Shown here piece by piece: positions 41,888-44,511 of a DNA stretch of 64,000 nucleotides (the first letter of the stretch is position 1; each line of letters opens with the position of its first letter). The translations under genes and the position numbers were made by a program. Location: contig JUEB01000014.1 of the NCBI GenBank assembly GCA_000802095.1, positions 1 through 64,000 on the forward strand, written 5' to 3'. The notes beneath the pieces are model-generated. The model was not told the origin of the DNA and did not search any database. It saw nothing but the letters and a program-made list of their open reading frames with translations. This stretch comes from Peptococcaceae bacterium BICA1-7 (lineage in GTDB: Bacteria; Bacillota; Desulfotomaculia; Desulfotomaculales; Desulfocucumaceae).

Positions 41888-43057
41888 TTATTTGCCCGCG
41901 AAGTGCTCCACTATAACCCTGCCCCAGGAGCTGCCGTTTACCACACCCACGCCTACATGGGTATAGGTAGGATACAGTATATTACGGCGGTGGCCGTCAC
42001 TGTTCATAAAGTTTTTGTGGGCTTCCGGAACCGAACTTGCAAAGGCGATGTTCTCAGCCCCTAAAATGGTGTAACCCTTAATCCCTGCCCTGACCATCTG
42101 CTCGTAGGGTGTGCCAAGGGTGGGCGAGGTATGAGAAAAGTAGTTGTTTACAGCCATGTCCGTGGCCTTGGCCCGGGCAGTTCCCACCAGTTGCATGTCC
42201 ACCTGTAGCGGCTGAAGCCCGCGGCTGGTCCGCTCCTGGTTGATAAGGTTCACAAGCTGTTGCTCCTCGGCTGTCAGGCCAGAAGGAGTCGGGGTCGGAG
42301 TCGGGGTCGGAGTCGGAGCCGGAGTCGGGGTCGGAGTCGGAGTCGGGGTCGGAGTCGGAGTCGGAGTCGGAGCCGGAGTCGGAGCCGGGGTCGACCCACG
42401 ATTGGCGTAAGCCATAACAAGTGCGGCATAGGTGTTGTTGTCTACTTTACCGGTCACCGGCAAATTGTGGTCCCGTTGAAAGGCGCTTACCGCATTGGCG
42501 GTGTTCTGGTCATAGGTGTTATCAACTTTGCCTACGTTATAGCCAAGGGCTGTTAGTTCTTTTTCAATATTATTTACTGTAGTGGACACCATTCCTACCT
42601 GTCCATAAATGGTGACTTTTGAGGGAGCCGGTGCCGGAGTCGGAGTCGGGGTCGGAGTCGGAGCCGGTGCCGGAGTCGGAGCCGGTGCCGGAGTCGGAGT
42701 CGGGGTCGGAGCCGGAGTCGGAGCCGGGGTCGGAGCCGGAGAACTTCCGCGGTTGGCGTAGGCTAATACGATAGCCCGGTAAGTTGTGTCATTCACAACT
42801 CCGGTTACAGGAAGGTTTTGCTTTTGCTGAAATGTTTTAACCGCCGCCTCAGTGTATCCGTCGTATTTATAGTCCACTGTGCCCACGCTATAGCCCAGCG
42901 CGGTCAGCATCTTTTCAATATTGCTCACTGTATAGGTAACGGTACCCACTTTTCCATATATGGTTTCGGCAAAGGCCTCAGAGAGGGGAAATGCCATCAG
43001 TACCAGAAATGCGGCCAGGGTGGCCACAGCAGTCTTAAGCTTATGAATCCGCATCAT
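41888..43057 (-). CDS. secreted peptidoglycan-binding CAP-domain protein
   Basis: A 389-residue exported protein. The signal peptide is residues 1-30 (cleavage after AFA). Two nearly identical peptidoglycan-binding modules (about 32-102 and 148-218) share YGxVGxV, IEKxLTALGY and NLPVTG. A C-terminal CAP/SCP-like domain (about 262-389, [49 protein letters not shown]) is of the YkwD type. Pro-Thr/Ala-Pro linkers of about 40 residues each separate the three domains. Such proteins bind the cell wall or spore cortex; CAP function in bacteria is not settled. The start has AAAAGGAGG upstream. Confidence 0.9.
42284..42392 (-). repeat. hexanucleotide-based low-complexity tract, second linker of the CAP protein
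   Basis: Imperfect six-base units (GTCGGA/GTCGGG/GCCGGA on the plus strand) encode an alternating Thr-Pro/Ala-Pro linker. A similar tract encodes the first linker. The codon-level repeat is prone to slippage, so linker length is probably variable between strains. Confidence 0.85.
42629..42740 (-). repeat. hexanucleotide-based low-complexity tract, first linker of the CAP protein
   Basis: As for the tract at 42284: imperfect GTCGGA/GCCGGA/GCCGGT units encoding the Ala-Pro/Thr-Pro linker between the two peptidoglycan-binding modules. Confidence 0.85.
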
Positions 43058-43344
43058 TCGTTATTTCCTCCTTTTAATGCTTGTCCACTTACGGATCCTG
43101 TTAGTTCACATCACCTGCCCTTCTAATTAATATAAAAAAGCTCCTTTCGGTGCATCAAAATGCAGGAAAAAGAAGCTTTTCCTTAGTCCTTTTCAGGCAA
43201 CTCTTCCCCGAAGGGAAAGATGTTATTATCTTAGCAGATAATAAGACACAATTCTACTGCCAAAATTATACTGTAGCCTTCAAAACGAAATGGGTAACTC
43301 TAAAAACCCAAATACGCTTTAGTGATTACGCCGCTTAAAAAGGC
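43058..43344 (-). other. upstream region of the CAP gene with several hairpins
   Basis: About 290 bases between the selenoprotein-like gene and the CAP gene, with no open frame of note. Read on the minus strand it contains TTATTATCT-gct-AGATAATAA (about 43220-43243), a GGGAA/TTCCC hairpin (about 43200-43217), and a terminator-like hairpin AAAAGCTTC...GGAGCTTTTTT (about 43135-43185) with an inner TGCAT/ATGCA stem. The order of hairpins followed by a T-run would fit a regulated leader, but I match it to no known riboswitch. Confidence 0.35.
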
Positions 43345-43367
43345 AATGCCGCCAAACAGGCGGCTTT
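43345..43367 (-). terminator. terminator after the selenoprotein-like gene (minus strand)
   Basis: Stem GCCGCC-tgttt-GGCGGC. In the minus direction it starts within two bases of the TAA stop and is followed by ATTGCCTTTTT. Confidence 0.75.
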
Positions 43368-43651
43368 TATCTTCTCCTTTGGGCTAAAAGCCGGGGAGGA
43401 GCGGACTTACTGGTTTTGAGGTGCAGTACCAGGTTGGGCGGGTCCTTAGGAAAGCTTTTGACTACATATATTACTATATCTTCCCTGGTGTGAATATCAT
43501 ATTTTTCCTTATCAACAGGCTCACCCACGCTCACGGCGGGGGAAATTCTAATACGTCCTCCTCAGCCACGGCAATGATCCTGGTCAATGGTTATGCACCG
43601 GGCATGGGCTTTGGCAAAAACCCAGGCATCCTCATTGAAAATTATAGTCAA
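43367..43651 (-). CDS. probable selenoprotein, HesB-like 'CC/Se motif' family, with in-frame UGA
   Basis: A 94-codon gene seen only if one TGA is read through. TTG at 43651 has AAAGGAG about eight bases upstream. Codons 1-29 read MTIIFNEDAWVFAKAHARCI then TIDQDHCRG. Codon 30 is TGA (43564-43562). The same frame then stays open for 64 codons, GGRIRISPAVSVGEPVDKEK then YDIHTREDIVIYVVKSF and on, to TAA at 43367, followed at once by a terminator. The layout (short strand-helix start, C-x-x-U-G-G, then P-x-V-x-x-G-x-P-x-D-x-x-x-Y and a D-x-I-x-V-Y-V strand) matches my memory of the HesB-like CC/Se motif (seleno)proteins, where U alternates with Cys. A hairpin able to serve as SECIS could form just after the UGA (GGAGGA/TCCCCC, or CCCGC/GTGGG further on). 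Alternatives are a nonsense-mutated pseudogene or sequencing error. Function unknown, presumably thiol/selenol redox or metal-related. Sel genes are not in the window. Confidence 0.72.
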
Positions 43652-43794
43652 TAGAAGCACTCCTTTCTGTCAGCCGTTTTTTGCCAATATATGTTTTAAT
43701 AACCATATTTGTTACCCGGGTGCGTTGTAGCATCAGGACGGCGCTGCTCATATAATGAATTACATTTTATGAAAATTATGTTAGGAATGATTTG

Positions 43795-44511
43795 ATGCCT
43801 TTGGTCAGTGTGGTTATCCCTACCTTTAACCGGGCCGGAATGCTGGAGAAGGCGGTTCAGAGCGTTCTGACCCAGACATTTAAAGACATTGAGCTCATTG
43901 TGGTGGATGACGGGTCTGGCGACAGGACTTACGAGATAATGGAAAAGTACCGGGGGCAGTTAAAATATTTTTTCAAGAAAAACGGGGGAGTGGCCAGTGC
44001 CAGGAATTATGGTTTGGAAATGGCCTCCGGAGAGCTGATCGCCTGGCTGGATGACGATGATTTTTTTTTCCCGGGGAAGATTGGAAAGCAGGTGGAATGT
44101 TTTATAAGAAACCCGTGGGCGGGCCTGGTTTATACCGGTCATATGACGGTTGACAGCACCTCCTTCAGGGAAAGGAAGTCCTATTATGTACCCCCTTATT
44201 ACAGGGACTGCCGTTCAAACAGGGATGCCCTTATGGGCCGTTGCTTTTTTGCCAATAGCACTGTGATGATGAAGAGAGTGTGCTTTGATCTTGCCGGAAG
44301 GTTTGATGAGGGGCTCAGCCACACTGTTGACTATGACATGTGGCTTAAGGTGGCAGCCTTCTATCGTTTCGCCTGCGTGCCGGAAGTGCTGGCGGGCTAT
44401 CGCTGGCACGGCCGGCAGATATCGATGCACAGGGATGGTAATATACTGCCGGAACTAATAAAAAAGGCCCGGGAGCTTTACCGGCTACACCCCTGCGGGG
44501 AGGTGGGATAA
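43795..44511 (+). CDS. glycosyltransferase family 2
   Basis: A 238-residue GT-A fold transferase using a nucleotide sugar. Motifs: VSVVIPTFNRAGMLEKAVQS, IELIVVDDGSGDRTYEI, the metal-binding DDDD in ELIAWLDDDDFFFPGK (about 82-97), and the acceptor-side region with FDEGLSHTVDYDMWLKVA. ATG at 43795 follows AGGA; a TTG one codon earlier is also open. It begins a run of plus-strand sugar genes with tight spacing (stop and next ATG are adjacent). Confidence 0.92.
   Translation: MPLVSVVIPTFNRAGMLEKAVQSVLTQTFKDIELIVVDDGSGDRTYEIMEKYRGQLKYFFKKNGGVASARNYGLEMASGELIAWLDDDDFFFPGKIGKQVECFIRNPWAGLVYTGHMTVDSTSFRERKSYYVPPYYRDCRSNRDALMGRCFFANSTVMMKRVCFDLAGRFDEGLSHTVDYDMWLKVAAFYRFACVPEVLAGYRWHGRQISMHRDGNILPELIKKARELYRLHPCGEVG

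Follow-up and report, generated by a model that had tools for sequence, protein, structure and literature searches.

A probable, strongly diverged selenoprotein gene of the CC/Se motif family with an in-frame UGA in Peptococcaceae bacterium BICA1-7

Within the 64,000 nucleotides of contig JUEB01000014.1 analysed here (the window), a short minus-strand frame runs into a TGA codon and continues in the same frame up to a TAA. This raises the question of whether the TGA ends a small ORF or is read as selenocysteine (Sec). Very probably, the frame is a real gene in which the UGA of codon 30 encodes Sec, and its product a 94-residue selenoprotein that belongs to the CC/Se motif family (NF041239). 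The gene occupies positions 43367..43651 of the minus strand and consists of 94 codons and a stop, with one TGA read through. Sequence, translation and scan confirm the architecture described in an earlier, sequence-only reading: the frame begins with TTG (43651-43649), eight bases behind the ribosome binding site AAAGGAG (43660..43666), comprises 29 codons up to the TGA (43562..43564), which aligns with TGA or Cys codons of relatives, and extends for 64 more codons to the TAA (43369-43367). A terminator-like (intrinsic) stem-loop is located 3' of the TAA (43348..43364); the consensus scan that detected it finds 4 sites in 1 kb, where 1.1 are expected. A weak sigma-70-like promoter match (9/12) upstream of the gene (43686..43715) comes from the consensus scan only. 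The upstream neighbour is a plus-strand glycosyltransferase gene (43792-44511), and the downstream neighbour on the minus strand (43057-41888), which encodes a protein with CAP and peptidoglycan-binding domains, begins about 310 bases beyond; based on this orientation and the signals, the selenoprotein gene probably stands alone and is transcribed alone. The product of 41888-43057 is of the surface type and combines a CAP domain with Pro/Thr-rich repeats and two peptidoglycan-binding domains; seven of the eight genomes searched encode CAP proteins with 40-58% identity to it over the C-terminal part only.

The case for a gene is based on homology rather than on composition. It had been argued that coding-like composition continues unchanged past the TGA, which turned out to be weak evidence: the GC content by codon position is 0.52/0.41/0.52 before and 0.56/0.42/0.45 after the TGA, and GC3 of the candidate gene (0.52 before and 0.45 after the TGA) is below that of the five neighbouring genes measured (0.58-0.67). 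The bare pattern, i.e., an SD-like motif, a start codon, a TGA after 15-59 codons and then at least 60 codons before a TAA or TAG, is not rare either and was found for two of 32 SD-preceded starts that meet a TGA within 60 codons in the 64-kb window. The motifs attributed to the protein are correct, since the translation reads C27-R-G-U30-G-G, followed by P38-A-V40-S-V-G43-E-P45-V-D...Y51.

With the TGA translated as Cys, the 94-residue product reaches 45.6 bits against NF041239 (cut-off 40), or 46.6 bits with an M start, so that the family had been named correctly; with the TGA left as an unknown residue, the score of 38.6 is just below the cut-off. The match spans residues 1-68 of the window protein and positions 1-68 of the 91 profile positions, and the last 26 residues are unmatched; this C-terminal quarter is aligned only by MAFFT and is covered by the predicted fold. 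The window protein thus resembles members of NF041239 (Moor_selen_rel) in size, in the position of Sec or Cys, in the CxxU motif, in the PxVxxGxP segment and, with the TGA as Cys, in its score above the cut-off, whereas it differs from them in the unmatched C-terminal quarter and in having the longest end branch (1.96) of the 73-row tree. All 32 rows of a 32-row alignment, the window included, match NF041239 at E <= 1, and the residues that are at least 90% conserved in this alignment (A9, U/C30, P38, V40, G43 and P45) are all kept in the window protein. The label 'HesB-like' is justified as a statement on distant homology and fold; as a classification it does not hold, because NCBI separates the CC/Se family (NF041239) from the HesB-like selenoproteins (TIGR01911). 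Of the 32 alignment rows, 12 match PF01521 at E <= 1 (best 5e-4); searches with the window protein gave no Pfam match up to E 10, PF01521 included, and no TIGR01911 match in NCBIfam up to E 1. A 2026 review (PMC13188914), in its passages on the CC/Se family, lists a CxxU motif and one Sec, predicted in Moorella thermoacetica, and assigns the family no function there. The words Moorella and thermoacetica are absent from the main text of PMC2398784 and PMC5029168, the two papers that the review cites for the family.

Homologues align through the TGA with Sec or Cys in the respective column, as the relatives' alignments revealed. Among 75 aligned rows, the window included, this column contains TGA in 48, TGC or TGT in 22, TAT in two, ACC in two and TGG in one, and in two of the 22 Cys-codon rows, a TGA follows at a distance of one or three codons; the count includes the decayed copies G019:C13:31701 (TAA) and 28056 (TAG) and omits members known from search loci only (L025, L027-L031, L033-L035 and L037 without stops, L042-L046 with TGA), G097:C170 (a run of N), the weak partial matches G108 and G024:C3:222287, and the members seen only in the 398-genome profile search. 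The two decayed copies are also part of the hairpin alignment of Cys and other forms and are absent from the tree. NF041239 detects members in 45 of 113 genomes of the class and in 90 of 398 genomes of a phylum sample, the own genome being counted in each. Using the window protein as query, 12 other genomes among the 398 match, 11 of them with one TGA; the locus of the twelfth contains two TAA codons and was taken as a chance match. A pattern scan of an 84,980-species collection yielded a single locus, L127 of Mycolicibacterium, which was rejected because of stops near its frame and because the likeness is confined to the patterned stretch. As a side observation, the member with Trp (TGG) in the Sec column (L097, G097:C28:5059-5334) has kept a SECIS-like hairpin, and Tyr or Thr is found in this column in L093 (G096:C2:729986), L095 (G097:C155:1877), L105 (G102:C51) and L106 (G104:C33); the two Tyr copies are convergent to a Sec copy.

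The genome encodes another, typical CC/Se member on contig C33 (89.6 bits, one in-frame TGA). Relative to this paralogue, the window gene represents a strongly diverged second copy, and its spacing from U to P is longer by one codon. No orthologue of the window gene was found in the seven other genomes of its taxonomic family, of which three contain typical CC/Se members, three weak matches only and one nothing. The tree (73 rows, 96 columns, long branches) gave no settled place for the window copy.

Reading of the UGA as Sec would depend on SelA, SelB, SelC and SelD, helped by a hairpin just downstream of codon 30. All four genes, selA, selB, selC and selD, are present in the genome, an assembly of 33 contigs and 4.75 Mb with a stated completeness of 100%: a tRNA-Sec was found, selA is located beside selB on contig C9, and selD is encoded on C11. 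The frame of selD (L022, G000:C11:143082-144005) itself contains one in-frame TGA, and its product is therefore likely to be a selenoprotein as well.

For the hairpin, the evidence is clear at the level of the family and weak for this copy. In 38 Sec forms, the window included, a six-pair stem GCCTG[C/T]-CGTGNNN-[G/A]CAGGC can be formed, which in most rows begins 17 bases behind the UGA; 96.5% of its 228 cells are paired and 14 are changed on both sides, compared to 21-40% pairing in slid-arm controls. These rows represent 38 of the 48 Sec forms, and the omission of L115 and nine others, eight of which are spaced differently or divergent (listed are L058, L059, L070, L072-L074, L076, L077 and L081), favours a clean-looking hairpin. 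The 23 Cys and other forms, taken from 27 non-TGA rows after removal of L071 and L118 (U nearby) and of the near-copies L080 and L106, are paired to 71.7% in the same columns versus 29-41% in slid controls, and their covariation score of 0.316 is slightly above that of the Sec forms (0.269). Since the Cys forms also pair above the controls and covary more strongly, part of the pairing may derive from coding constraint, from shared descent or from relics of Sec forms. Codon resampling separated the two groups, with a mean z of -0.92 for 46 Sec forms and -0.05 for 20 Cys forms (p 0.0002; L118 and G037 dropped from the Cys set because of a U nearby); the window alone has a z of -0.72. In bacteria, a SECIS element typically carries a G at position one or two of its loop, and the best loop shows such a G in 39 of 46 Sec forms and in 11 of 20 Cys forms.

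The candidate SECIS hairpin of the window gene, CCCGC-CGTGAGC-GTGGG (43524..43540, minus strand), starts 21 bases after the UGA, has a G at the second loop position and forms five of the six family pairs, one of them by a double change. An RNA model that was trained without the window, on 33 of the 37 non-window rows of the Sec hairpin alignment, ranks this site best within the gene (11.3 bits, E 0.0011) and third across the 64 kb (E 0.24). The same five-pair stem is retained in 43% of synonymous recodings of the window sequence. Because of this third rank and the frequent retention of the stem, the hairpin is counted as consistent with a SECIS element, not as proof of one. Single-sequence folding after the UGA was no better than shuffles for both the window gene and its paralogue (z -0.05 to 0.73), and an Rfam search of 43300-43800 at E 1 gave no match.

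The simplest alternative would be an ordinary 29-codon ORF, or no gene at all, followed by a frame that is open by chance, the real gene, if there is any, being the plus-strand ORF at 43421-43654. An open plus-strand frame is present, and two starts in the window show the bare pattern; however, the NF041239 match and the alignment through the TGA speak against a chance frame, and a Pfam search with the plus-strand ORF gave nothing at E 0.001. We therefore rejected both chance read-through and the plus-strand ORF, and consider this explanation extremely improbable. The main rival is a decaying extra copy, which would be homologous to CC/Se selenoproteins and no longer made or useful. Its very long branch, the unmatched C-terminal quarter, the lack of an orthologue in related genomes and a hairpin for which the evidence is weaker than in typical members would all fit this idea. 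On the other hand, a run of 93 random codons is free of stops with a chance of about 0.012 (frameshifts not counted), so that an unconstrained frame of this divergence would be expected to be broken, and the gene has retained its ribosome binding site and start, a terminator-like stem and the near-invariant residues. In addition, the mean pLDDT of the predicted structure is at least 79 for every ten residues. Decay is thus regarded as improbable. The proposal that normal ORF calling misses a selenoprotein here is supported by the NF041239 match, the alignment across the TGA and the presence of selA-D; the last two are the opposite of outcomes that the earlier reading had named as refuting it. 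Family membership, the Sec/Cys column and the full Sec machinery are results of computation, as is the A-type-carrier fold described below; from these, we infer that the window gene is translated and that Sec is inserted at codon 30.

A separate branch of the family carries two adjacent UGA codons. An in-frame TGATGA that covers the Sec column and the following one is present in eleven loci of ten genomes from five families, all outside the own genome (L189-L199, in genomes G156, G378, G190, which has two, G258, G332, G355, G225, G442, G462 and G480). A seven-pair hairpin is possible behind the TGATGA in all 11 loci, with 100% of 77 cells paired and 8 changed on both sides, and L199 adopts a different fold at minimum energy. 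All nine Sec-Sec proteins searched match NF041239, five of them above the cut-off, and each of the ten genomes encodes another CC/Se member with a single TGA. Neither a literature search nor a word search of PMC13188914 brought up a report of neighbouring Sec residues for bacterial proteins of the CC/Se family; the literature coverage is incomplete, and this is not proof of novelty.

The window protein is predicted to have the fold of the A-type carriers IscA, SufA and HesB. An AlphaFold2 model based on the 32-row alignment has a pLDDT of 91.5 and a pTM of 0.80, and a structure comparison of this model ranked IscA (Z 9.0), SufA (8.7) and DsrR (8.0) highest. DsrR of Allochromatium vinosum is not known to contain Sec. 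Ten chains reach a Z of at least 5.5, namely three IscA chains, SufA, DsrR, two named Fe-S biosynthesis proteins and AQ_1857, hi1723 and a YneR model, the last three of which we take to be kin of the IscA-type chains; the next chains, of ribosomes, only have Z values of 2.1 and 2.0. Foldseek gave no match at E <= 0.001 (best 1.4e-3), and a family-profile search of solved structures gave no credible match, its one match to ribosomal L19 (E 0.47) being taken as chance. In hhalign comparisons with six HesB-like selenoproteins of the class, the probability was 93% (E 3e-7), with Sec aligned on Sec, and with eight it was 94%.

The likeness to each of these groups has its limits. The modelled overall fold agrees with IscA and SufA over 87 and 84 residues, respectively (rmsd 2.8 for IscA); however, the identities are as low as 6% and 2%, and the window protein lacks a C-terminal CxC. 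DsrR (2k4z) likewise shares the IscA-type fold over 87 residues and has 13% identity to the window protein. HesB-like selenoproteins (TIGR01911; PF01521) share the fold and the Sec at the aligned site, whereas the window protein matches neither profile and reads U-G-G-R in place of the UxGP motif that PMC13188914 gives in its table. C19, C27 and U30 are the only Cys and Sec residues of the window protein. A CxC motif within the last 25 residues was found in one of 48 Sec forms. A Cys three residues before U is present in 14 of the 48, and ten have no Cys within five residues of it, which shows that a pair of the C27-U30 type is not general in the family.

What the protein does can be answered tentatively. 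It may be a small redox protein with a C27-U30 selenenylsulfide, or a soft-metal(loid)-binding protein, rather than an Fe-S carrier, a reading that we put forward with reserve. With U30 at the Sec site of HesB-like proteins and C27 three residues earlier, a selenol/thiol pair would be available, and as the CxC tail is absent, the protein would act in selenol/thiol redox reactions or in the binding of soft metal(loid)s. IscA-type carriers bind Fe-S via three Cys ligands, including the C-terminal CxC tail. IscA-style Fe-S carriage is unlikely for the window protein, as it has C19, C27 and U30 only and lacks the CxC motif, which is absent from 47 of the 48 Sec forms. A function as A-type Fe-S carrier in place of carriers missing from the genome would be compatible with the identity of the gene and with its IscA/SufA-like fold. 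The own genome has no PF01521 match, and PF01521 occurs in 8 of 113 class genomes and in none of the 45 with CC/Se proteins (chance of no overlap 0.014, relatedness ignored). However, 60 of the 113 class genomes match neither PF01521 nor CC/Se, and together with the missing ligands, this makes such a replacement unlikely. All eight PF01521 (HesB/IscA) matches of the class (L181-L188) contain an in-frame TGA, one of them two, and seven are over the cut-off.

Equally compatible with the identity of the gene is a role as metal(loid) chaperone or in detoxification, in which a soft ion such as As(III) or Hg(II) would be bound by the selenol. Resistance genes adjoin 22 of 91 family loci and 2 of 40 control loci of the same genomes (Fisher p 0.007), as judged by probes for ArsR, ArsP, a methyltransferase (ArsM-like by resemblance), SBF/ACR3-like and P-type ATPase genes; this contrast is inflated, since the probes were picked from the family loci themselves, the loci are partly neighbours or duplicates in one genome, and their lengths differ. 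In the passages concerned, PMC13188914 connects resistance to Hg and As with several other selenoproteins. However, the window gene and its paralogue are both outside the 22 loci, and a metal(loid) function is a possibility that we hold somewhat more doubtful than the broader redox or soft-metal reading. CC/Se copies near an ArsP permease were observed at L061 (G019:C13) and L066 (G024:C3); at L061, where CC/Se copies are broken by TAA or TAG, ArsR and SBF/ACR3-like genes are also nearby.

Speculatively, the CC/Se family might descend from the A-type-carrier fold as a selenium-based offshoot in which Fe-S binding was lost and whose members serve soft metal(loid)s as selenol chaperones or reductants. 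In this picture, the window gene would be a specialised second copy that evolves fast in a single lineage, and another branch would use UGAUGA to insert two adjacent Sec residues via one SECIS hairpin. With the window gene, a divergent new member is added to an already known family, whose Sec forms are cut short by ordinary stop-codon reading, and this family is tied to HesB/IscA by fold and Sec position. The arsenic and metal genes that neighbour part of the family, together with the Sec-Sec branch, lead to direct tests of CC/Se function.
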